Below the pieces are notes generated by a model, which ran no database searches, was not told the origin of the DNA, and was given only the letters and a program-made list of their open reading frames with translations. From the NCBI RefSeq assembly GCF_023856365.1, contig NC_064543.1, forward strand, positions 6,155,952 to 6,219,951: DNA of 64,000 bases. The letters run 5' to 3'. The DNA comes from Brienomyrus brachyistius. Its lineage: Eukaryota > Chordata > Actinopteri > Osteoglossiformes > Mormyridae. Shown here piece by piece: positions 2,252-59,902 of the stretch (its first letter is position 1; every line of letters begins with the position of its first letter). The position numbers and the translations under genes were made by a program.

Positions 2252-5200
2252 ATGGACGGTTTCGATGAGGATTTAGTAAACGCCCTTAAAGACGTTGTCC
2301 GCCATGGGAATTGGTGCTGCGTAGGGGAGAAACGCAACTTCAAGCCTGGGTGTACAAAGTAAGGGCATCGGGAGCCTTAAGCACGTTAATGAAACGGGTG
2401 TAACAGAGATAACTTGGCAGTGTATTTCATAGACTTAAACTCTGGCATTTTAAAACGGCAGCTGTAATTTTCGGGCGGAAGCCGGGATATCAGCTGCACG
2501 GCAGCGCTGCACCCACTGCGGAATTATGCTTGGCATTATTTCTAATGCTTAACTAATGATCTGAATAACTGTGTTTTACTGCGAGGCTGTATGCGGAGGA
2601 TGGGGAGCACGTTGTCCTTGTGCGGACGGAAGATGATGGCTTCTGGGCGATGGACTCCTCCTGCCCCCATGAAGGTACCGACATTTCCCGTGCCCGGTTC
2701 TCCCAGTCTTCCTAATGCTCTTATCATAACCTCCATGCCGTGCAATATCGGAGGATTTAGAACTGAGGGCACTGTCGCTGTAAAGTGTAAATTATAATGT
2801 CTTATTTAAAAATATATATATATATATATATCTTAATTAACGCCTATTGCACGCCGCGTCTATGGGAGTTGTAGTCCTTAACTCTGAAATCCTGACCCTT
2901 GTAACCTGGTAATTAATGTCTTCAAATGCGAATAGCAGATTTCAAGTTGGAAAAAAATAGATGGTACTGAATTAAAATGTAAACTCCATTTGAATGCATA
3001 GAATTAATTGTAGTTCGTTAAATTTGCCATAAATACTTTTTTGTGTATCTCTTGCATGTTCCGTGTATATATGTCAGACCTGCGCAAAAGCGTTATCCGG
3101 TTAAAGTTTTACGTTAAAGCCTGCGAAGACGAACAGTTTTTTTTCCAGCTTATCTTTCTTTGAATTAACAATAATTAAATTGTAAAATCGAACACATCTA
3201 TCATTGGACCTTTCATCAAGCATGAAAATAAACAGTCATTAAAAATGCCCCTTGTTTATATGGTGCAGCTTACGATGGGAAATAAAAATTTCAGTGGTTT
3301 CCCTGAATTTTATGACTGAGCTGCATGTTGGGTTTAAGTCTGGGGATCACATCAGACCCCAAACGCCCCAGATCGGGTTGCTGTATATGTCATCCTGACA
3401 GACAGAATAATATGTCTGTTTCGGCATTTCGTAGGTGGCCCCCTTGAGCTGGGAGACATTGAGGATTTGGGGAATGGGAAGCGGGGATTAATTTGTCCTT
3501 GGCATCACTTTGACTTCTGTTTGGAAACGGGGATTTCCTCTACAGGCCTGCAGGTAGGTGCAGAGAAGGCGGGCTCTCAGCGTAAACGTCTTCTGATTGG
3601 CTCGGTTGCCACTGGAGACCGCGGAAGGCCGGTCTGTGCTTAATCTCTGATTTTAAACTGGTTGCCTGTGGTCTCTTTTGAACTCCCCTGACATTACTTC
3701 CTTATACTGGATTGCTTTTGAAATTTGGAGTTTATCAGTTAAATTGCATGATAAATATAACACCTCTTTAGATTGTTTCAGTTGAAACTGAAGTATTGGT
3801 TTTATGCTGTTTGCAGAGCCAAGTGTATGAAGTCAGAGTTGTCCAAGAAAAGGTTTATATAAACACTCAAAATATGCTGTCGCTTTGCCCAGCTTCTGAA
3901 GACAGCTCTCTTCCCTCGGGTAAGAACCTGGCAAACAGTCAGACCAGCCGCACGACTTAAGCAATACATGCACCTCTATCTAAGACGCTTGTCATGACCT
4001 TGAAATTCTGAAAAGCTTGGTGTGTTGTTCAGGAACACTGCCAGTAGAGGCACCCATGTCCACAACGTCGGAAAATTCACTCTGCTTCTGGGCAAGAACA
4101 ATTCTCTGCACGGCAGACCCAAAAGAGAAGGTAGAAAAACACAGATTAATTGATAAAGTGATTTGCTGCAGTTTAAGGATTTTTAATGCTTGAAATGTGG
4201 CCGTCGATCTTCATAAAGAACGTTTAACAAGCGGTCGTCGCTCTCAATGTTCCTGAATATATTTTCTTGAAGGTCACATTGACACAGGAGGTGCAGGAGA
4301 GGTGGAACTCCGGGAAGATCACGGAGGTGGGTGAAGCAACCCCCCCAGCGCAACCGTGGAGGAAGGACAACCTCACCGTAGTGGATCCCAAGAAGATGAA
4401 GCGTGGAAGAGGAGGCACACTGGTAAAGACCACCCACCCATCTTCCACCTGCTTATTCAGTACAGGGTTTATAGTCCAGCACCCAGCTGAATACACTTAA
4501 TGGCAGAAGATGGGCTTTCTTAATATAACACATAATGACTTTCAAAAGATTTATGAAATACATGTAATTTACTCATCTCCACTGTATCTATGACCCCCCC
4601 CCCCCCCCCATCTCGACAGGCCAGCAGGATCGCCCTTTTGCACTCCTTGGCCAACATGGAGCAGTGGGCCATTGATCTGTCCTGGGACATGATTGCCAGG
4701 TTCTCAAACTTCAGACTAAGCACCGGGGAACCTTTGCCCCTTCAGTTCTTCAATGACTTTGTCAAGGTGGCTGGAGACGAGGCTAAGGTCAGTGCTTATG
4801 TCAGTCTCACTGTGAGCGCAGGGGTTGATGGGAACTGTAGTGTTTAGGCGACTTCCTTCTGTCCGACAGCACTATAACCTGCTGGAGCAGCGCCTTACAG
4901 AGCTGGGCAGCTACTTTGGTGCTTTGCCAGTTCACAATGGTAGGACGGCTTATTACTCAATGCAGTGCTTCTCAGACTGGGTTAGGAACACCAGTATGTG
5001 CTGAATTTCGTCCCAGTCCGCGGCTCAAATAATTCTCAATCAAAGCTTCATTGGTTTATCACGAAGTCGACATCTAGGTGCTAAACAAACAGCAAGCGAC
5101 AGCGTCTGTAGGGTGTGTTCTAGAACGATCTTATGAGTCAAATGATTAATCTCAAACAATAGTTAAAGTGTGTGATAAAGCAGTCATTTAAATAAAAGGG

Positions 5201-6058
5201 CATTGAGAGATCAGGGAATCTACTTATTAAAGCAATCGTAGTTTGAATCAGTTTTGCAGTTAAAATGTGATGTATATTAATCATGCAGTTCTGGAACCAA
5301 AGCCAGCACATCTAGTGAGTCCCTGAGGGCTCCGACTGAGAAGCACGTCGTTACTCCCAGTAGGCTGAGGGCTGGGCTCTGACCGTCACCTTATTTTGCC
5401 TTCCAGGGCTGTGGCAGTCAGCCAAAGATACCTCTCACAGCCCACTGGCCAGATTGGCTGTCATAAACATGATTCACGAGGCGAGGTACGAGTCGCCCGG
5501 CCGCCTCTGTCCCGGGCCGCGGTGATTGCGCTTGCTTATGCCCCCTCTCTCCCCGCACCCAGGGGTCTGGACGTGCACCCGCAGACGATGTCCCGCTTCG
5601 CCGTGCAGGGCGATGACGGCTCTGTGCGGGCGCTGGAGGTGATCTACAGCGAGGAGATCACGCATGTGGCGGCAGGGCTGAGATGGTTCACATACATCTG
5701 CACGAAACAGGACCTGGTACGCAATGCTATGTCCAGCTCACCTCTCAAACAGCTTACTCAGCATGCTCAGCGCCAGGTCGGTACCAAACGTATGACACCG
5801 GACAGGCTGGCTGCCCATTCTCTCTTTAGGACTGCTTGGCTACCTTCCATGAAATGGTGAAGACACACTTCAGAGGTTACCTGAAACCTCCATTTAACAC
5901 CGATGGCAGAAAACTTGCGGGAATGACAGAAGAGGTAACGATCCAGTTTCTCTATTATTACCAAGGCTTGGTGAAATGTGAAATGCTTGGTGAATTTCCT
6001 CTGAAAACCTCTTCTTTCCTCCAAGTGGTATGTGCCCCTGGTCAGACCATCCAGCTGA
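2252..6058 (+). CDS. Rieske [2Fe-2S] / DUF455 ferritin-like diiron fusion protein
   Basis: Twelve exons: 2252-2358, 2586-2674, 3435-3553, 3817-3919, 4033-4130, 4273-4422, 4620-4787, 4870-4939, 5407-5485, 5563-5716, 5830-5934, 6026-6058. All have GT-AG borders and matching phases, giving 424 residues. Residues about 20-128 form a Rieske domain of RFESD type, with cluster ligands C62-x-H64 and C86-x2-H89 (CPHEG, CPWHH). Residues about 155-420 match the DUF455 family (bacterial HI_0077-like), seen in the RGLDVHP, HFRGYLKPPFN and AGMTEEWY motifs. Likely diiron ligands are E236, E276-x2-H279, E326 and E359-x2-H362, the ferritin-like pattern. No signal peptide or membrane segment is visible, so it is probably soluble. 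A natural reading is a Rieske centre feeding electrons to a diiron site that oxidises an unknown substrate; the function is inference. An uninterrupted C16 tract forms part of the tract before exon 7. I recall no mammalian orthologue with both domains. Confidence 0.9.
2812..2832. repeat. (AT)n microsatellite
   Basis: A run of alternating A and T in intron 2 of the Rieske-DUF455 gene. Confidence 0.8.
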
Positions 6059-6218
6059 CAGAGGACCTCAGCACATAGGTACAGTCAATGTACCCCCCCC
6101 CCCACGATTCTGTTAAAGATTAAAGTTGCCCTGGGACTGCTGTAGGTGGAGTCAGGTGCCTCAGATCTGCTTCAGAATGTCTGCTTTTGATGTACAGGAA
6201 CATCCAGAACATTATTTA

Positions 6219-6265
6219 AATAAAACAAATTTTTTATGCGTGTGAGAGTTGATTATCTGAATAAA
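6219..6265 (+). terminator. polyadenylation signals of the Rieske-DUF455 gene
   Basis: AATAAA occurs at 6219-6224 and 6260-6265, about 160 and 200 bases past the stop codon on the plus strand. The convergent MTFMT stop codon lies at 6431, so the two genes meet tail to tail within about 370 bases. Confidence 0.55.
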
Positions 6266-6430: not shown

Positions 6431-9400
6431 TCACACATTCTGGACTTTGTGTGCAGCCTCCCTGCCCAGAGGGGTGTCGCTCTCCTTCGTCTTGTAGCTC
6501 CCAAAGACGCACTTCTTCTGCTGCCGAGGAAGCTTCTTCAGGAAGAACGGGTGCAGGTAGCCGTTGTAGAAGTCCAAGGCCGAAAGTCTTTTCTTCAGCA
6601 TGACGGCCCTGAATGCTACCCGGCCGTCCTGTCACACAGAATGGAACCTCTCTCACTTCTGTGAGTTGAAGCAACAACGCCGGTCGCACAGATGCAAAAT
6701 TTCCGAAGTAACACAGAGCGTGATTGTTATTCCTGACAGGCTGTTTGCTTGCTATGAGTCCTACTTTAAAAATGGCCGTTTTTCATGCAGTCACCCTTTG
6801 CGATGCTTTGTCAAAGTATTCCTGGTTTTATTAACGTTTAGGAGGTTGCTCAGCCTCTAAACCTGTAACTGTAAATTATCAAAATATATTCAATTTCAGC
6901 CAAACTTTGCTAAAAACAGAAGAGCTACAGCAAAAAGAATGTCTGCTTACCTGCGAAAAATGCACAAGTACAAAAACTGGAATTTGCAATCAGCAACCAA
7001 TCAATTGCCACTAAGGTCAAATATCATTCATTCATTATTAAGTTCAGCTTCTCAGGTCATTCGATTGGTAGCTTGGACACGAATCAAAAACCAAATACAG
7101 AAACAAAACAGATGAATCTCAAGAGACAGCTTGTGGCTCAGTGGACTAAGTCTCTCTGCCTGTGAGCTGAAGGTTGCCGGTTCGAGCCCAGCCTTGAGCC
7201 CAGCTCTCTGGGCACCACAAGGGGGTAATGTAATTAACTTAAAGTTGACATAAGAACAATAGAAGGCTTTTTAAAAAAAAAAAAAAAAAGTTCGTATTGC
7301 TCCCCGATTTTCTTTGTAAATAACGTTATTTTTCTTGGTCTATTTTTAATTTAAAGCTCCGAAGCTGGGAAGCCCGGTGCTGCAGTGGTTAGCCCCCTTG
7401 CCTCAAGTCTCCACCAAGGTTCTGTGTGGGGAGTTTGCATGTTCTGCCCTGTGTTGTCAGGGGGCTCCAGCCCCCCCCCCCCACATCCCTGAACAGGACA
7501 AGTGGCTCCCAAAAAATGCATGGATGGACCAGTTTATAGTAAATAAAATGAGTACACAAAAATAAATTACTTGAACGCAGGTCCCAGAGATGTGAGGTAA
7601 CAGTGCAAACCTCTGTGTTCCCCACATTAGGCTGCTTCAGCATAACACTCCTGAAATGTTTCCCTATATCAGAGCTATATAAAATAAGGGGGAGAGGAAC
7701 TAGCATTTTTAAGGAGCACCTTGATGATTACTTGAAGAATTTTCTGGGTCAGACTCACCTTGCAGCTGACCAGCAGCGAGTCCGACTCCCTGTCGTAACG
7801 GACGGTTCCTGGAGTTTCTGCCTCTGCACCTGTCACATGGGATTAGCCAGTTAGCGCCTCAGGAAACCAGACTTGACCCAAATCATGTATAGCTTAATAC
7901 CACCAGGTATCTAGCAGAATTTTTTCATTGAATCAGCCATTGCGACCAAACGCAGGCCATCCCACTATGGCCAGTGACATATCATAAAATAAACTGCATT
8001 ACATAGATGTACTTTAATAATTCTGATAATTGTGTCAATAATACCATGCACCAGCAACTTCTATATTCACCTGAAAGTGATGTATGGAACTTTCCAACGA
8101 AATCCAAAAGCTTGATGGGCTCTCCCATCCAGAGGGTTCGTAGGGGGATCTAGAGGGAAACATTATCCGATTACTGCCCGTTCGTAACTTGTGTATGCGG
8201 CCGCTTCTGCCACAGACGAGTTCTCACCCGTGAGCCGATCGCTCGAAAAAGACGGTCGATCTGGTCACACGTGTGCTCCTCCCACACGATCCAGCTCATG
8301 GACGTGCTAATTTTGGGAGCTGCGGGGGATTAAAAGGTCACATGATTAAGATAAGGTTGGGTGAACCGGATGGGGGTGGGGGGGGGGTGGGGGTCGTACT
8401 TCACCTGATGTCACTCCATTACTCGGCTGCTCTCTTCTGTTTGCAACACATTCCGGCAAATTCTGTAGAGTGTCAATTAACTGTGGGAGAAAACGTTCCG
8501 GAAAGCATTAAACACTCCTCCACGTAAAGAAGCGACAAGGTGTTTTTTCATTTATGTCATTTTTACGAACCAGCTTGGCTCCCATGGTAGCCAAAGTCTC
8601 TCCAAGCTCTTCAGCTGTAGCGTTTTCCGGAACTGGGTAAATACACTGGTTCAGAATGGGCCCCACATCAAACCTAATATGGAAAACAATGCAAGTACGG
8701 AGCAAACATTACCAGTTAGAAGTTTTTGCATGCCACAGATTTTTACCACTTTTCAATTTATTTCATTAACTGGACATTTTTTATTCTTTTTAAGCACTGG
8801 AAAGTTGAGAGAACAATTATAAATGAAAATATAAGTCAAAACAAGATTCCTTTATAACATGGAGAGAGTCTGTAACAGTACATGTCTGACATCCTAGTCA
8901 AATACTAGGCTCTCCTTAATTGTCTGTTTCATCCCATGAAACAGAGCAGCACTTCATGTCCCTTGCAGAATGAACACCTCAAATTTTCTCTGGTGTTATA
9001 ACAGCTAGAGGTGGTTACTGTGATGAATTAAAGATATGACATTTTCTTGCTAATAAAGGTATTCAAATGGTGACCATACTGCAAATGTATTTGCTAGTAG
9101 AGAATACTGAGTGTATTTTTAGTAAATAACAAGTGAGCAACAAGGCAATGTACAAAATCTCAGTGTGTACAAAAACTTTTGGCTGGTAGTATCAATATAC
9201 ATAAGAAAACACGACCAGTTCAGAATGTGCCAATAGAATGTGCCTGAGTTTTAGAAGCAGCAGGACTCTGGTTCTTCTCAGTACTACAAGTGGACACCAG
9301 CGTCCCACAGAAGGCATTTACCTCTTTGGTCTGATCTGCATGACGGTCACCCCAGAAACAGAGTCTCCGTGGAGGACTGTGTGGAACACAGGAGCAGGAC

Positions 9401-11906: not shown

Positions 11907-14455
11907 ATGTCCTCCACTTGGATTCTGATATGTTTCCTCATACAAGGTAGACGTATTTATGTATTTTAAGAATACTTCATAGTGGAGTCATTGTATATTT
12001 ATGTATTTGGCAAATAAAAATGTTTACAATCACAGTGACCCTGTGTTGGATAAGTAATTGTGGAAGATGGATGGATGACTGAAATTTCTGATAAGAATGT
12101 AAGATATTTACAAATGAGAGGGGGCCATTCGGCCCATCGAGCTCATTTGGGGAAATGATGGAAATGTAGTTTCATGCCGATGTAGTGCCATTGTAGATTT
12201 GGTGTGAAGCTGCTGTAATTGTGGTGCAGTGGCGATAGAGGTCTGCAGTGCTATAACCGCATCACGTGTTTGTACTTTCAGAGGCAGGAAGCTTTATGAT
12301 CTACAACAGCATTCACAGCTTGTGTTTGCAAGACTCTCCGTGGAACCACACTCTGCAGTTAGAGCACTGTGACCTCAATGCCGACCTTCAGCAATGGCTC
12401 TGGAAAGACCAGCAGATGTTGGAGAATAAGGTCACGAGGACGTGCCTATCTTCGCAGCAGGACAGCCCTGTCCTCACTGCTCCGTGTGATGGCAGTGATG
12501 TCCTCCTCTGGCAGTGCCAAGACAGTCGGCTCATGAACCGCGACAGATCCTTGGAGCTCACCACCGACGGAAGCCGCCTCTTCCTGGCCAGAGGCAACAA
12601 ACTGTCCAAATGGAAATCCATTGAAATTGGCGACATTTGCAAGGAGCGTCAACGTGAGCAATCGCTTTCGTTTTCATCTTTCTATGGTTTTTGCTTGACC
12701 TCAAGATGGTCACCCATTTGTTGCACACCATCATGATACTGATGTCACAACAAGTGCTGTCCAATCCTGGCTTTTAGACATTACAGAAAATAATTTAACT
12801 AGTGTCATTGACCTAGTGGATTGACCCCCCCCCCTGCAGACACCCTACGTATCTGTTTTGTTCCATCACCAGTGTAGCTTAAATGATCATACTGAAGACT
12901 TGATAAATAAACCAGCTTGTTCAATTAGTTATTTAGGGTGTGCAGATGTATGTGCAATGGCTTGGAGTTCACACAGAAATGTTCAAGAACCAAATAAGCT
13001 CTTCAGTGAAGATATGAGAAGTTGTGGGTGATCAAAAACCAGCCTGTAAAGACCATGGTTGGGCAAACTTAAATTATACCATCTATCACTTCCCTCACTA
13101 ACAGTGTTCTTCAGTAACATATTATTAGCAGAGAGAGTAACACGGTCTATCACAGGTCACACTTTGTCACATAATTTCTTCCTGCTGCTCCCGGGTACAC
13201 AGGACCAAAAAGGGCTTCTGATGACTCCGACCACTTGAGGGCGCCGGATGATGAACCCCTCATGACCCTTGAGCAGAGAGAGTTCCTTCGATGGTATTAT
13301 CGCACAGAGGACAGTGAGTGGCTTTACTGCATGTCATAAACTGTCATAACAATGATCTGAAGTGGCTCGACTCCAAAGTACTGACGAGCCTGAGTCACTG
13401 TGTTAGATTATTGTCCTACTTCTATGGCTCCATCTGTGTGAAGCTTGAATTCTAAGGTTTAATAGGTCAAAACTCCCACCAGACAATTTGTTGACTGTAA
13501 TATCTAATCTAATTTAATAACGATGGAAAACTACGTTTGAACTTACTGCAGAAATGCCATAATTCTGTGCATCTGAGAGTCTGACCTTGAGAACGCTGTC
13601 ATAGGTCGGAATGGGGGGGTGGGGGGCTAAAGATATTTCATCATTTTCACATCCCAATAAAACTAAGCAGCAGAGAAAATGGCTTTTCATTCTGATGCCC
13701 TGATCCTGTTCCCCATTCTAGCTTTCATTGGACAGGAAGGCAGTATAGTAGGTCATGGTTACCATAAAACCTTCCTATAAAGTATGTACGAGTCTATGGT
13801 TTTATTTGCTCACCCGGCTGTTGAAAGCACATTTGAATCAAATTTAGCGGTTTTTAACAGCACCTTAAATCCCCCCGTATTTGGTCTGGAGGGCTGTAAA
13901 ACGGGCTGACATGAGCATCCTGCCTGCTGTTTTACAGCGTCTTCCTGGAGGTACGCCATGCTGGCTCTGTCCTATGGGGCCCTCCTCATTGGCTGCGGGC
14001 TTCTAGTCACAGGACTAACAAACAACAGGTCAGCATATTGTACATACGCAGTAGAAATAATTTGATTATATTTAATCAAAATGGATACATTATGCCACAC
14101 AATGAGGGGAACATTGACCAATGAGATGTGAGTAAAACCAATCAGTGATTGACAGAACATCAACCCTCCACGGTGGGCCTCAAAATCTCATCAGTTACTA
14201 TGTAATACATTCAAACAATTGACACCAAGAGCATTATATTTAGTACGGTGCTGACTGCTTGTGCTTACACCTTCCAGGAACAGAAAGCAGGCAAGAGTCC
14301 AGGCCACAGAAGGGCAGGAGCTTCAGAAAATGACGGTGGTCAGGCAGGTTGACGGGCCCCCAGCCGAAAGGCACCAATCAGAGGATCCGACATTCATGTG
14401 TGGGGAGAAGAATGGGCTGACCGTGAACCCTGGGCTTCGAGAAGAGGACGTCTGA
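11907..14455 (+). CDS. slc51b: OST-beta (SLC51B) with an N-terminal mannose-receptor-type cysteine-rich domain
   Basis: Five exons: 11907-11946, 12282-12653, 13203-13313, 13938-14028, 14278-14455; phases agree; 263 residues. Residues 1-13 are a hydrophobic signal peptide. Residues about 17-133 are a cysteine-rich beta-trefoil domain like the first domain of mannose receptor family proteins (FMIYNS, LQQWLW, LLWQCQ, LSKWKSIE; cysteines 28, 43, 68, 82, 92, 133; sequon NHT at 36). R138-P-K-R141 is a furin-like site. Residues about 155-205 carry the OST-beta core (FLRWYYRTED, then a transmembrane segment at about 179-201), followed by a basic-flanked cytoplasmic tail. OST-beta pairs with SLC51A to export bile acids and steroids. 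After cleavage the OST-beta part would be 122 residues, close to human OST-beta (128), which has no such ectodomain. Its place between MTFMT and RASL12 matches human SLC51B. Fusion and processing are inferred from one genomic sequence. Confidence 0.88.
12109..12155 (+). repeat. dispersed repeat fragment
   Basis: GGCCATTCGGCCCATCGAGC is a word I know from an old dispersed repeat in several ray-finned fishes. It lies in SLC51B intron 1, and only this short piece remains. Confidence 0.4.
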
Positions 14456-17680: not shown

Positions 17681-19560
17681 CCTGGGTGGCAAATATACAA
17701 AGAAAGCCTACGATAGATGTATCGCGTTGGGCGTGTACATGCCTGTAAATACAGCAGAACACACAGTGGAAAAATATCATTAGATCAGCGCTGGTAGTAC
17801 CGATACATTAAATACCGTATAGTGTCGCGAAGTCCAGCAGGTTTACCTTCAAATGTGCTCCGGGTCCCAGAAACATTGATTGTGAAAGTTTAAACTCGCC
17901 TCGTTCAAAGTAAAAAATTATTGCACATATTTCTTCTGTAAGATAGACTTAAGGTATAATCATTCATTGAGTAAAGACCGGCAAATTAGAGAAAGTTTTT
18001 TACATTTAATTCCAGAAGAATTATTCAAATACCCTGTGTTATTATTTTCTAACGAAGCGGTTCAGAGGTTTGAGGTTTTGCATGTCGAGATATTATCAAA
18101 GCCCGATTTGCCGAGGAATGCCCCTGTGCTGACGTCAGCTCTCTGATTATCTGGCTCCTTGTAGGGAGCGACTCACGCAGCCCTCCTTGAAGGGATGGAG
18201 AGATGCGTGCAGTTTAATCCGGGAAACATTATCAGCATTTATTCTGACATTAATCTCAGAAAACGCACACACTTTAACACAGGCGACGGGGAGTACAGTG
18301 TATATGCATGTCTATGCCGGGGGGAATACATCCTGTTAATACTGCGCATTATATTCCCTACAATGAGTCAAGAGCAACAGTTTAAGGGATTTCTCATATA
18401 ATGTAAATATTAGTAAACAACTGTTGTTAAGTTTGTAGCAGGAAAAAAAGTACAATAATCATTTGAAATTTATCACATTTCTATCATTTCTCCAATTAAA
18501 ATCGGGAAAATACAGTCAGTTTCACACGTAGAACTAAGTGGATTCCTGCAGAAATGACGGACGAATGACAGATCGCGACACTGGTTTAGCTACACAATGA
18601 CTGCAGCCATTGGGGGTGAGTTATATGTACGGAACTGCAAATCTCTTGATGTAGACCTAGTGTCCTGAGATAAGCAGGTGCCCTTATGTGATCCTGTGTG
18701 TGCTGGATCTGGCCCACGTTTTTATATCTGCCCTGGGGGAGCATTTTCATTGGGCTTGGTGTATCAGCTGCCAAAGGTCATTGGGAGACAATGGAAATTT
18801 GATTGGCTGGTGGGGTTCACCGTGGGGGGGTATGTGAGGCTGGGAAGGGGTTTTCCAGGTCAGTGCAGTATCTTTTGGGTCGTTTGAGTAAATTGGTATT
18901 AGAGCTGTTGCCCTTGGTTACTGTTTTTTTTTTTTTAACAATTATTTTATGCCATGGCGTCAAGGGATACGGACAATATTCCGATCACTTTGAGAACATA
19001 GAGGATTTATGAGTCTCCATTATCTGCTCATACATATTCGTTCTTGTCAATAGAGAATCTGATCCGACAACAGATCCAAGCACATTATGATAGAAAACGA
19101 TTTTAAAAGGTTATGACTTTTGATACAGATAGCAGTGACCTCAGATACCATTCAGCTGCAAAGATTAAAGCGCTCAAACTGGCATGTTCCCAAAAATCAC
19201 GATCACATCCAAGAATTAACGTCTCTGAATCGTTAGCACAGCGACGTCTGTTTTGCTACATGCGTCCATGTGTCAGTCCACCTTGCATTTCGCATGTCAA
19301 ATGTTTGCATGTCATGAAGTATTAACTGTCCCCCTGTCATCTTGCTATCTATAGCCAGTGCTATTCTTATAGCCAGGAAAAATACCGGGATCAGGACAGT
19401 AGATACTTGTGTAAGAGCAGCTACCTTGTGTAGAGTACACAGTGTCATCTTCTGGAACAATGACTAGGAAAATGAAATGCTTTTCACTATCCGGGTAAAT
19501 TTTCTCGGCAGGCTGTTGTGTTATTTCGCAGTTTAAGTGTTGGGAGAAGGTGGTTTAAAC
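17681..19560. promoter_or_regulatory. divergent intergenic region between RASL12 and KBTBD13
   Basis: The two genes point away from each other, so this 1.9 kb must contain both promoters. No further coding sequence is recognised. A possible acceptor (TCTCGGCAG) at 19502-19510 could mean that a non-coding KBTBD13 exon lies upstream. Confidence 0.4.
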
Positions 19561-21057
19561 ATGGTGGAACCTAGCGGCTGCTATGAACTGGGAAGTGAAA
19601 CCAGGCAGCCAGAATGTGGACCAGGGAAGCGTCTACGAGCGGCGGCTCTGAAGGTGAGAGTGGAGGAGAGCGTTTTCCTCGTCGACAGGGCCCTGCTGCT
19701 CCAGCACTGTGAGTACTTCCGAGCTCTCTTCCGGTCTGGAATGAGAGAGTGCGGCCAGGAGGAAATTCACCTGAAGGGTCTGAGCGCTCGCGGGTTCCTG
19801 GTCATGCTCAGCGTGCTGAGGGGCGAGCGGCCCATGCTGGACGCCGACGAGATCATTGATGCCGCGGAATGTGCCGGATTCCTCCAGGCGGAGTTTCTCT
19901 CCAGGCACCTCGTAAACATCATCAACTCTGACAACTGCCTGCTCATATGTCAAGTAGGAGCCAACTATGGGATAGCAGACCTCCTCCACAGTGGGGCGCT
20001 GTTTCTCCGAGACTCTTGCCGTGACCTGGAAGGGGCGGCCAGTTGTCTCCCCAAAGAGCTGTTGGAGTACGTTGAGTCTTTGACTCCCAGCTCCTACGTG
20101 ACCGTTGGCGCCCACTCGCCGAGCGTCGAGCTGCTGCAGGACTTTGTGCGGACGGTGTGCTACCTGGATGAGGATGAGAAGGACTGGAAGGTTCTGACCG
20201 ACTTGCCGAACGAAGCCAGCACCACCATGGCCGGCCTGACTGTCCTGGACAACAGGCTGTACATCGTCGGAGGGGTGCGTGATATTACCAACCAGGTGGT
20301 CGACTCGTGCTTCTGCTACGACGCCTCTGCCGACACGTGGAGTACGTTTGCCTGCCCCCACCAGCCTCGCTACAACCTCACGCTGGTGGGGCACGATGGT
20401 TACCTCTACGCCATCGGGGGGGAGTACAACAGGACGGTCATGTCCTCGGTGGAGATGTATGACGTCTCCACCAGCACTTGGTCCCAGGCCTCCCCATTTC
20501 CCCACCCCGTATCCAGCGCCCCGAGTGCCAAAGCGATGAGTCGGATCTTCATTTGCTCATGGAAGCCGATGGGTGCCACTGACATCCACGAGTACCTTCC
20601 CGGGGAAGACAGATGGACGCTCCTCACAACACTAGTGAGGCACCAGAGTTATGGCCACTGCATGGTGGCCCACAGGGACAACCTCTATGTAATGCGCAAT
20701 GGGCCCTCAGATGACTTCTTGAGGTGTGTAATCGACCGCTTCAACCTCACCACGGGGCAGTGGACGGCCATGCCGGGTCACTACAGCAACAGCAAAGGCT
20801 CCCTGTTCACCGCGGTAGTGAAGGGTGACTCCGTTTTCACATTCAACCGGAAGATGACCCTGGAGTATGCCATCGAGGACGACGCATGGAAACCGAGAAG
20901 ACAAATGCGGGGTTTTCCACGAATCGGCTCTTTCTGGACCTTTTCACTCAGGCTGCCGAAGCCTGGGAATCAGCCGGTGAGAAAGAACAACAACTATCAG
21001 AGGTTCAAGAACCAAAGTCATGCCCATCCCTCATCCTCCTTACACTGCACTCTTTGA
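19561..21057 (+). CDS. kbtbd13: KBTBD13, BTB-BACK-Kelch muscle protein
   Basis: One uninterrupted coding exon of 498 residues, as in human where the gene is intronless in its coding part. The BTB domain covers about residues 28-125 (VEESVFLVDRALLLQHCEYF), a BACK-type region follows, and Kelch repeats run from about 210 to 460 (LDNRLYIVGG, DGYLYAIGGEYN, GFPRIGSFWTF). Kelch-BTB proteins of this group are substrate adaptors of CUL3 ubiquitin ligases; human KBTBD13 acts in striated muscle and is mutated in nemaline myopathy 6. The ATG at 19561 is chosen as the first in frame. From memory the human protein is 458 residues; the extra length here is at both ends, including a basic, asparagine-rich tail (VRKNNNYQRFKNQ). 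AATAAA motifs downstream (about 21425 and 21484) are possible polyadenylation signals. Confidence 0.96.
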   Translation: MVEPSGCYELGSETRQPECGPGKRLRAAALKVRVEESVFLVDRALLLQHCEYFRALFRSGMRECGQEEIHLKGLSARGFLVMLSVLRGERPMLDADEIIDAAECAGFLQAEFLSRHLVNIINSDNCLLICQVGANYGIADLLHSGALFLRDSCRDLEGAASCLPKELLEYVESLTPSSYVTVGAHSPSVELLQDFVRTVCYLDEDEKDWKVLTDLPNEASTTMAGLTVLDNRLYIVGGVRDITNQVVDSCFCYDASADTWSTFACPHQPRYNLTLVGHDGYLYAIGGEYNRTVMSSVEMYDVSTSTWSQASPFPHPVSSAPSAKAMSRIFICSWKPMGATDIHEYLPGEDRWTLLTTLVRHQSYGHCMVAHRDNLYVMRNGPSDDFLRCVIDRFNLTTGQWTAMPGHYSNSKGSLFTAVVKGDSVFTFNRKMTLEYAIEDDAWKPRRQMRGFPRIGSFWTFSLRLPKPGNQPVRKNNNYQRFKNQSHAHPSSSLHCTL

Positions 21058-31183: not shown

Positions 31184-34100
31184 TCAGTCACCCAGGGTGT
31201 CCTGCTTGTCCAAGGCGGTGGCCCACACCTCATCTGAGGGCAGCTCAGGGAGAACCCAGCTCTGAGGGATGAAGCTTCCATCAGGGAGATCTGATGGGAC
31301 CAGGTACTGATCCCACGCCCTCCTGGTTGGGAAGAAGACAGGGAAACCATGACATCAAAACTGGAGATCAAGACACACTGTAGGACTGCAAACCCTGCCA
31401 GTGTGTGAAGGCCAGGCCATGTTGTGTCGTAGTAGCAGTGGTAAACTCACTGGAAACTGCAATGCCAAAATGTGGAGCTCACCTCGTCTGTATGAGGGCG
31501 TGCAGGGAGGTCTCTGCCTGTAAGTAATACTGCCTGTAGAGCTGCAGCGGGTGGTCAGAAGGCATTTCATCTAGGAGGAATAGAACAGCGGTACTTTATT
31601 GCCCCCCTGTGGGGAAACTGGGTAGGATTTCACATACCCTGTCTTGCTTTTCATGACGGACGCAAACACACAAACAAATATCTGTATCACAAAGTATGAT
31701 ATCTCGCTTAGACCAAATAACGTCAGGTTTAAATGGACTCATTCACTCTTATCCCAGACTACCTTAAACCAAAGTTATCCGGTTAAGCAAGAAATCCTGC
31801 TTTGTTATACAAACCTAGGCCACAGATCTCTCACCTACTGAGCTAGACTCCGCCCCAGGAAGACACTTGACAGCACTTAACATACTAGCCGTTTAAAGAA
31901 CATTGTTATTCCAATAGCAACATGGCCACCTGACAGGTCTGATTTAACAGCAGTCCGGGGCGCACCTCCAAAGAGCACGCACTCCACCTCCCGCCTCCTC
32001 TGCAGCTGCTTCTCTCGCTCCTTGCGGTGCTTCCTCTCCTGCTCGCGTTTCCGCTCCTCCTCTCGCTCTCCCTCCAGCATGACGCGGAGTGCCTTTTCCT
32101 CTGCCGCGTACACCGCCGTGCGCTTGCGGATCAGCCTCCTCAGACGCTCCAGGTGGCCTTCGAACACCTCGTCCGCCTCCTTTTCCGGGTGGACGCCTGC
32201 CCCCGAGGGAAGGGGAAAAAAAAGAAAAACTTCAGTTACACATGTACAGAGTTCGTGATTCAGGTCCGGAGAGTGAATGTCCAGACCGGGATTTTGTTCA
32301 AACCAACCAGCTGAGAATTAAGAGCCATAGTCATAGAGTATTCAACTGGTTGGTTGAAACAAAATCCCGGTCTGGACTTCTACTCTCCGGACCTGAATTA
32401 CCCAACTCTGTATATGAATCATAAGATTCAACTGAAGAAATGGGTGGTAATTAGCAGTGAAGTCGAATCAGGTGTGTTAAATGAGAGGAAACCCGAAAGT
32501 GTGCAGGGTTGGGGTTCTCCAGGACTGGAATAGGAGACCCCTGCTATCTTATACCAAATATATAAAAGGTGTTGTTGCAGTTCCCTCCAGCAGGAGGCAG
32601 AATCATTTGTAGCAACAAGTCCTGTAAGAATGGGGGTGATATTTAAGCATAATGAAAAATACTAAAGCAGAGAGCCCAAGCAGACTGGGCTGTTAAAATA
32701 CCACAGCTTATTTCCCCTTCTTAAGATCCTAGGCATTAAACTCCAAAAAAGACTAACATTCCCAAATTATACTTCAGCTGACCTCAGAGAGGCAGTGGGT
32801 TCACCGTAATGCAGCGATTCTCAACCCATGGGTCGCGACCCAAATAAAATTCTTAAAGTGTCAAAAGGCAGATCTGGAAATGTAAGCATTTTAAAACCAG
32901 AAAGCTCCTATGCTGATCCACGATCAGATTTCCCAGCCCCAATCCTAGAATTAACCTATACAAACAGGTCTTGGGTTTGCAAATGTGCAAAACTAGTGAA
33001 CACTCAACCAATCCAAGAAGCCAAACTATAGATGCTTTATTTAAAATTCACTGGTACATCCAATCAGATTTGTGTGATAGGCATTGATTGATGTAAATTG
33101 CAGAGTGCAGTCATTTGCTTGATCACAGCATTTTAAATATATACTTGATATAGGGTTGCGACTGAGCTGGCATGGGCAAAACTGGGTCACAGTGCAAAAA
33201 AGGTTTAGAACCACTGCTGTAATGGACACACACTGGGGAGCTCCAAAGGGATATGGTTATGAGTTTGTGCCCAACTAACTGGCATCTCATATAGGCTGGC
33301 TGCTGCTCTGTGTGCAGTGCATGCCGGCATAGCCGGTAGGATTTCTTTGACCCTGCACCGGATAAGTGATTATAATAATAATAATACAGTAAGCCGCCAC
33401 CACCCAGCAGCCGCTCCCGTCAGGCGCGCTCCCGGTACCTTTCTTAGCGGCCGCCTCCTTCCTGAGCCTGCGCAGTTTCTCCAGCGAGCGCAGCACGTCC
33501 GTCATCCTCTTGGCATCCGCCTGCTTCTTCCGCACCTCCGACAGCACGCTGTCCGCCGCCTGCCGTAGCTCAAGCTCCTGTACGGCAGTGGGAATTAATG
33601 TAATACACGGCGTCAATTTCACTGTGGCACCAAACATATTGAGAATATATAACTTTAATGGAGACCGAGCTGTGAACGTCACTCATACCCTTTTCTTCTC
33701 TTCCACTTGTTGGATACGTTTCATCCGCCACTTTTCTATAGCGGCGTCCTTCTCCGAAGTTCTTTCCTCTTTTTCTTTTATTTCCTCGCAAGACTCACGT
33801 TTCTTCCGCCGATTCCTGGCTCTCCTCTTGCGAATCAAATCCACCTTTTTCTTGCAGGCGTCCATACAAGCGCTGTCGCCGAACACCTTCAGCTTGTCCT
33901 GCAGGTCGCTGCGCATCGCCGCGGCTTTGGCGTACGACTCAGTCCACACGCCCTCGTTCTCCATGTTTTGCTTTAACTCCTGGCATAAAAGCGACAAGTC
34001 GGACACAAGCCGGGCGGCATCATAAAGTCTTTCCTTCAGCTGACATATCGAGGGGGCACCATCTGGTTCCTTTGAAGCGGCGGGCTTTTTTATTTTCCTG

Positions 34101-36532: not shown

Positions 36533-42614
<6,082 letters not shown>

Positions 42615-51163: not shown

Positions 51164-59902
<8,739 letters not shown>

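Follow-up and report, generated by a model that had tools for sequence, protein, structure and literature searches.

A predicted fish gene joining a Rieske domain to a complete DUF455 domain: a candidate diiron oxygenase with a built-in electron donor

The locus and its gene model

We describe a predicted gene of the mormyrid fish Brienomyrus brachyistius which encodes a Rieske [2Fe-2S] domain and a DUF455 domain in one chain. It lies in a stretch of 64,000 nucleotides of contig NC_064543.1 (RefSeq assembly GCF_023856365.1, positions 6,155,952 to 6,219,951 of the forward strand), hereafter the window, whose first letter is position 1. Twelve exons splice into an intact protein of 424 residues (424 codons plus stop, no internal stop), starting from a codon in a strong Kozak context. 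The introns measure 77-760 nucleotides, and candidate polyadenylation signals are found 3′ of the stop. Splicing thus reproduces, residue for residue, the 12-exon model of the first-pass annotation, and the ten ligands proposed there (C62, H64, C86 and H89 for the Rieske cluster; E236, E276, H279, E326, E359 and H362 for a diiron site) all stand at the claimed numbers. The gene is laid out as follows.

2252-6058, + strand: complete coding sequence of the Rieske-DUF455 gene (open spliced frame, GT-AG in 11 of 11 introns)
2252-2358, + strand: exon 1, residues 1-36, start codon; Rieske domain from about residue 20 (splicing, Pfam)
2586-2674, + strand: exon 2, residues 36-66; Rieske ligands C62 (2662-2664) and H64 (2668-2670)
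3435-3553, + strand: exon 3, residues 66-105; Rieske ligands C86 (3494-3496) and H89 (3503-3505)
3817-3919, + strand: exon 4, residues 106-140; the Rieske domain ends and the linker begins here (splicing, Pfam)
3920-4032, + strand: intron of 113 nucleotides separating Rieske from DUF455 exons
4033-4130, + strand: exon 5, residues 140-172; linker and start of DUF455 (splicing, Pfam)
4273-4422, + strand: exon 6, residues 173-222; N-terminal part of DUF455, conserved
4620-4787, + strand: exon 7, residues 223-278; H230 (4641-4643), E236 (4659-4661), E276 (4779-4781)
4870-4939, + strand: exon 8, residues 279-302; H279 (4870-4872)
5407-5485, + strand: exon 9, residues 302-328; E326 (5478-5480)
5563-5716, + strand: exon 10, residues 328-379; D331 (5570-5572), E359 (5654-5656), H362 (5663-5665)
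5830-5934, + strand: exon 11, residues 380-414; R406 (5908-5910)
6026-6058, + strand: exon 12, final codons and stop
6119-6265, + strand: three possible polyadenylation signals (ATTAAA at 6119, AATAAA at 6219 and 6260)

The model could in principle merge two genes, one for the Rieske protein (exons 1-4) and one for DUF455 (exons 5-12). The linker between the domains (about residues 122-165) matches no Pfam family, which makes the join of exons 4 and 5 the least supported splice, and DUF455 is separate from Rieske in all bacterial relatives seen. However, the junction intron has GT-AG ends and an agreeing phase, and neither AATAAA nor ATTAAA occurs in the introns at 3554-3816 and 3920-4032. Since the halves are only 113 nucleotides apart with no polyadenylation signal between them, two separate genes are very improbable. 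As judged from the DNA, the Rieske and DUF455 domains are encoded by one intact gene model.

Domain assignment and copies in the source genome

Both domains named by the first-pass annotation score above the curated Pfam cut-offs, and DUF455 is present at full length. PF04305 (DUF455) covers residues 166-416 (profile positions 2-246 of 247; E 2.5e-97; 325.7 bits, cut-off 34.3), while residues 20-98 match the Rieske family PF00355 (E 8.3e-11; 42.1 bits, cut-off 20.3). Two further Rieske families exceed their cut-offs, Rieske_4 (PF22543, residues 23-98, E 1.2e-11) and Rieske_2 (PF13806, residues 20-120, E 7.4e-8). These scores are far beyond chance. Among solved structures, the Rieske half is best matched by 3d89, a ‘Rieske domain-containing protein’ (E 1.2e-11) which we take to be mouse RFESD; 13 plasmid records match this half at 27-50% identity over 52-95% of the query.

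The source genome comprises 985,274,225 bases in 1384 contigs. A search with PF04305, in which 150 of 189 candidates were scored, found matches at two places, both of them exons of the Rieske-DUF455 gene. The whole protein matched 13 places, 11 of which lie within this gene. The two others (C77:119494-119622 and C15:6583245-6583364) match the Rieske half only, over residues 65-108 and 66-106 with 53 and 58% identity, and are perhaps stand-alone RFESD-type genes. Patterns drawn from the Rieske-DUF455 protein had no match in the viral contigs.

Proposed metal ligands, fold and structural relatives

Bacterial relatives of the DUF455 half were examined as the best 80 of 583 confirmed loci. Alignment A2 holds 60 of these 80 (L046 was excluded because its match contains a stop, 19 others to limit the number of rows), and the fusion protein is included in alignment A4 (48 rows) only. 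All six proposed diiron ligands are conserved without exception in both alignments, A2 (60 of 60 rows) and A4 (48 of 48). The same holds for three residues outside the ligand set, H230, D331 and R406, whose invariance suggests a catalytic pocket.

An AlphaFold2 model of the Azospirillum relative (locus L008) was predicted with a local distance difference test score (pLDDT) of 94.1 and a template modelling score (pTM) of 0.91. It adopts a ferritin-like bundle in which the ligand equivalents are placed in long helices, with E168 at a one-residue break. Thus modelled, the bacterial relative shows the four-helix bundle with E/ExxH/E/ExxH ligands which would place it in the ferritin-like diiron class. 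The ligand set proposed by the first-pass annotation is supported by the invariance of its residues and, through this relative, by predicted fold and helix placement.

Structure alignment of the L008 model ranks aldehyde-deformylating oxygenase at the top (Z 15.1; root-mean-square deviation 3.0; 181 residues aligned), followed by the azoxy synthase VlmB (14.1; 3.8; 198), the tRNA hydroxylase MiaE (13.6; 2.9; 160), bacterioferritin (13.5; 2.1; 143), R2lox (13.4; 4.3; 195), toluene/o-xylene monooxygenase (13.3; 4.0; 192) and rubrerythrin (13.1; 3.0; 143), where entries less than 1 Z apart are tied and helical bundles below about 13 may share their arrangement alone. In the model, the alignments to oxygenases are longer than those to ferritins, which would favour an enzyme without proving it. 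Foldseek gave no match at E 0.001 (best E 0.016). A sequence search of the PDB with DUF455 profiles returned no significant row: R2lox appeared at E 0.15-0.3 and a MiaE-type chain at 0.21, alongside the unrelated MCM7 at 0.24-0.31. The same ligand pattern is given for the diiron oxygenase BioE (E41, E68/H71, E140, E170/H173; PMC12915131).

A role in iron storage was set aside: the protein has extra helices and Ferritin matches only 3 of 48 DUF455 rows, yet Ferritin comes second in the profile comparison described below.

Bacterial relatives, distribution and tree

The DUF455 half shares 40-49% identity with the best 80 of 583 bacterial loci, with no match beginning before residue 104. Among these 80, the names are alphaproteobacterial throughout except for L015, which is named only as Pseudomonadota. 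Of 398 Pseudomonadota genomes, 158 score above the PF04305 cut-off; none of 14 control genomes does. An alphaproteobacterial source of the DUF455 half would fit these sequence data.

In a tree of 61 rows, 28 sequences without a peroxiredoxin gene as neighbour are split off by one branch (support 99/99). The fusion protein lies outside this group and falls with the alphaproteobacteria, at a fork that the tree, whose bootstrap had not settled, does not resolve.

Two outlying relatives deserve mention. A Geobacillus stearothermophilus plasmid carries, between transposase genes, a distant member of DUF455 with 377 residues (L007:5467-6600), extended at the N terminus by about 130 residues and devoid of a Rieske motif. 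A Parvibaculum genome holds a second, weak DUF455-like match (G002:C189:7742-8287, E 9.7e-4).

The nearest sequence family

Searched against Pfam at E ≤1, 48 DUF455 rows gave 20 matches to PF06175 (MiaE; best E 6e-4), three to Ferritin, three to an unrelated winged helix, one to rubrerythrin and one to ribonucleotide reductase. The Pfam family of aldehyde-deformylating oxygenase matched none of the 48 at this threshold. For rubrerythrin (PF02915), the fusion protein gave no row and the single DUF455 match had a best E of 0.16, short of the cut-off. NCBIfam returned no DUF455 family for the same rows, only six weak families (best E 0.007).

Profile comparison with hhalign aligned DUF455 to MiaE over 123 columns with the six ligands in register (E 1.5e-4, probability 52%). 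With narrower alignments of the two families, the match was confined to one helix (E 0.018 and 0.038, probability below 3%), so that the outcome depends on the rows chosen. Control profiles built from 19 COQ7, 20 rubrerythrin and 19 Ferritin rows (after removal of L205 and L246 from the COQ7 and Ferritin sets) aligned to DUF455 at E 0.011, 0.018 and 3.7e-4, respectively, and MiaE aligned to COQ7 at E 0.002. By sequence comparison, MiaE is probably the nearest family to DUF455, by a small margin over Ferritin.

Kinship is to be distinguished from membership. The fusion protein gave no row against PF06175 at E ≤0.1 (cut-off 27 bits). The IEARSCERF motif of MiaE is not found: DUF455 shares EAR, followed by GLDV in place of SCERF. 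Judged by these family models and motifs, DUF455 is not a member of the MiaE family. One DUF455 gene (G075:C66:21231-21953) matches the MiaE model weakly, at 19.4 bits and E 5.7e-4, below the cut-off.

Gene neighbours in bacteria

Neighbours of bacterial DUF455 genes were counted by tblastn. Among 86 loci of the alphaproteobacterial type having at least 700 nucleotides upstream, 65 have a peroxiredoxin gene no more than 700 nucleotides upstream and in the same orientation. Of 40 further loci, 12 likewise have such a gene close upstream; it is missing in the other 28, where clusters, judged by eye from the starts of the sequences, offered no nameable redox partner. In L002:5333-6609, L003:5276-6588, L005:5303-6573 and other alphaproteobacterial loci, the peroxiredoxin gene lies directly upstream, often with touching or overlapping ends, in an operon-like arrangement.

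With the Rieske half of the fusion as tblastn query (E ≤1), no Rieske gene was found near DUF455 in 127 bacterial loci. A six-frame scan of these loci (1,381,492 bases) found 26 CxH...CxxH strings, and in none do CxHxG and CPxH occur together. Either the donor was joined on the eukaryotic side or the bacteria use another donor.

Proposed mechanism

We propose, with a probability of about 0.6, that the gene product is a diiron oxygenase of the DUF455 type whose electrons come from its own Rieske domain. A reductase of the cell would reduce the [2Fe-2S] cluster held by C62, H64, C86 and H89. The cluster would then hand electrons to the diiron site formed by E236, E276/H279, E326 and E359/H362. 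Once reduced, this site would activate O2 and insert oxygen into a substrate bound near the invariant H230, D331 and R406. The proposal builds on the gene model, the domains, the invariance of the ligands and the fold of a bacterial relative, from which we infer the iron, the electron path and the oxygen chemistry. The first-pass annotation had proposed a one-chain electron donor plus diiron oxidase or hydroxylase; this is partly supported, by the single gene model, by the ligands and by the fold of a bacterial relative, which aligns to diiron oxygenases. That DUF455 is naturally fused to a Rieske electron carrier is a direct clue to a redox enzyme.

Candidate substrates and rival functions

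As a single guess at the substrate of such an oxygenase, isopentenyladenosine in tRNA leads, followed by acyl or aldehyde chains, although even the leading guess is doubtful. The enzyme would act as a Rieske-fed counterpart of MiaE and hydroxylate the isopentenyl group of A37, a version that we consider unlikely but worth setting out. The PF06175 matches and the ligand-register alignment to MiaE speak for it, and so does the distribution of the two families. Of 120 genomes (taken as G001 and G004-G122, with DUF455 counted above cut-off only and thus without G073, G078 and G117), 48 have DUF455, 21 have MiaE and two have both (Fisher p 1.3e-3, shared ancestry ignored). When MiaE is restricted to 16 canonical genomes (E <1e-59, a subset cut after seeing the data), the overlap with DUF455 is 0 (Fisher p 1.7e-4, shared ancestry again ignored). 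In the order of genome G401, 11 of 22 genomes have DUF455 and 0 of 22 match MiaE, where a missing match is not proof of absence, though the same model did find matches in the 120-genome draw.

According to several reviews (PMC7680852, PMC8234997, PMC12066119, PMC7913349), no miaE homologue is known in eukaryotes, plants included, although plant tRNA holds cis-zeatin; they describe the plant cis-hydroxylase as unidentified and zeatin in some bacterial tRNAs as of unclear origin, and they report that trans-zeatin of Methylobacterium and Bradyrhizobium comes from tRNA. MiaE itself is mostly said to produce the cis form. E. coli is reported to lack ms2io6A. A table for coconut lists io6A and ms2io6A with MiaE as ‘N.D.’ (PMC10298058). 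Against the tRNA version stand the profile score of Ferritin, which is almost as close as that of MiaE, the modest hhalign probability, the missing SCERF part of the invariant motif and the place of aldehyde-deformylating oxygenase above MiaE in the structure alignment. In addition, the genome overlap carries the two limits given with it, and one literature search found no report of zeatin in fish tRNA. The wider claim that DUF455 is the missing MiaE of eukaryotes, of many alphaproteobacteria and of other proteobacteria, making a zeatin-type base out of isopentenyladenosine at position 37 of tRNA, is rather unlikely in our judgement. If DUF455 were that enzyme with its own Rieske reductant, the tRNA of this fish should contain hydroxylated isopentenyladenosine.

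The same oxygenase might instead act on fatty acyl, aldehyde or amine groups, in the manner of aldehyde-deformylating oxygenase, BioE and VlmB. Aldehyde-deformylating oxygenase tops the structure alignment, but its Pfam family is missing from the 48 rows, the best Foldseek E is 0.016 and a common fold does not show function; this version, too, is improbable. A function outside the oxygenase proposal would be that of a rubrerythrin-like peroxide reductase or ferroxidase, in which the Rieske domain takes over from rubredoxin as donor and H2O2 is reduced at the diiron site, with no substrate being hydroxylated. The frequent upstream peroxiredoxin gene would agree with it, and a fused donor is the rubrerythrin plan. 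Nevertheless, of the four families compared by profile, rubrerythrin scores weakest, 28 of the 40 further loci have no peroxiredoxin neighbour, and the conserved N-terminal region and invariant non-ligand residues suggest a bound substrate. We hold this function to be quite improbable and keep the oxygenase with a built-in donor as the preferred explanation.

Novelty and significance

A literature search found no paper containing both whole words Rieske and DUF455, and no assigned function for DUF455. The domains are known, and their combination is one for which this search found no functional report. Two Arabidopsis genes, AT1G06240 and AT5G04520, are presumably DUF455 genes. In two papers, both appear only as phylogenetic markers. 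Elsewhere, DUF455 is listed as present in an anemone and not in a coral (PMC6214176), and the assignment of its fold needed designed sequences (PMC4520260).

If the kinship with MiaE reflects function, DUF455 would become a testable candidate for the plant cis-hydroxylase, which is listed as unknown in plants in a 2024 review of cytokinin biosynthesis (PMC12066119). If the substrate differs, a Rieske domain and a diiron oxygenase in one chain would still form an unusual self-contained electron relay.

Genomic surroundings

Downstream of the fusion gene, Pfam identified five further features in the window.

12257-12733, + strand: ricin-B lectin exon
19537-21054, + strand: single-exon gene of a kelch/BTB protein
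33290-33682, - strand: PDCD7 exon
38059-38466, - strand: AAA exon
52523-53056, - strand: ankyrin exon

The set of kelch/BTB, PDCD7, AAA and ankyrin genes suggests synteny with human 15q22, of which we take this block to be the counterpart. Exons resembling methionyl-tRNA formyltransferase were recognised by eye at about 6431-8708 on the - strand, in a tail-to-tail arrangement with the fusion gene; a Pfam search with two short pieces found nothing. Scans of the window for tRNA genes and Rfam families gave no match.

Comparison with known systems

The stand-alone bacterial DUF455 proteins resemble the fusion in their full-length domain and in all six ligands. They differ in that the best 80 loci are without a Rieske domain and in the peroxiredoxin gene which usually precedes the alphaproteobacterial ones. 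The RFESD-type protein 3d89 has the GGPL-x-LG-x-IED and CPWH stretches in common with the Rieske half, but it comprises 157 residues and has no DUF455 domain.

Among diiron proteins, MiaE is set apart from the fusion by the sub-threshold PF06175 score of DUF455, by its SCERF motif, and by the longer N-terminal region and fused Rieske donor of the fish protein. Aldehyde-deformylating oxygenase shares 12-15% identity in the alignments and has no fused donor. Rubrerythrin likewise joins a ferritin-like diiron domain to an iron redox domain; its iron, however, is of the rubredoxin type and not Rieske, and its profile E is only 0.018.

The proposed division of labour has a parallel in the toluene-4-monooxygenase system, in which a Rieske protein donates electrons to a diiron hydroxylase. 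The ferredoxin of that system matches the Rieske half of the fish protein weakly (E 0.007-0.04). In contrast to the fusion, donor and hydroxylase are separate subunits there, and the hydroxylase is a different one.

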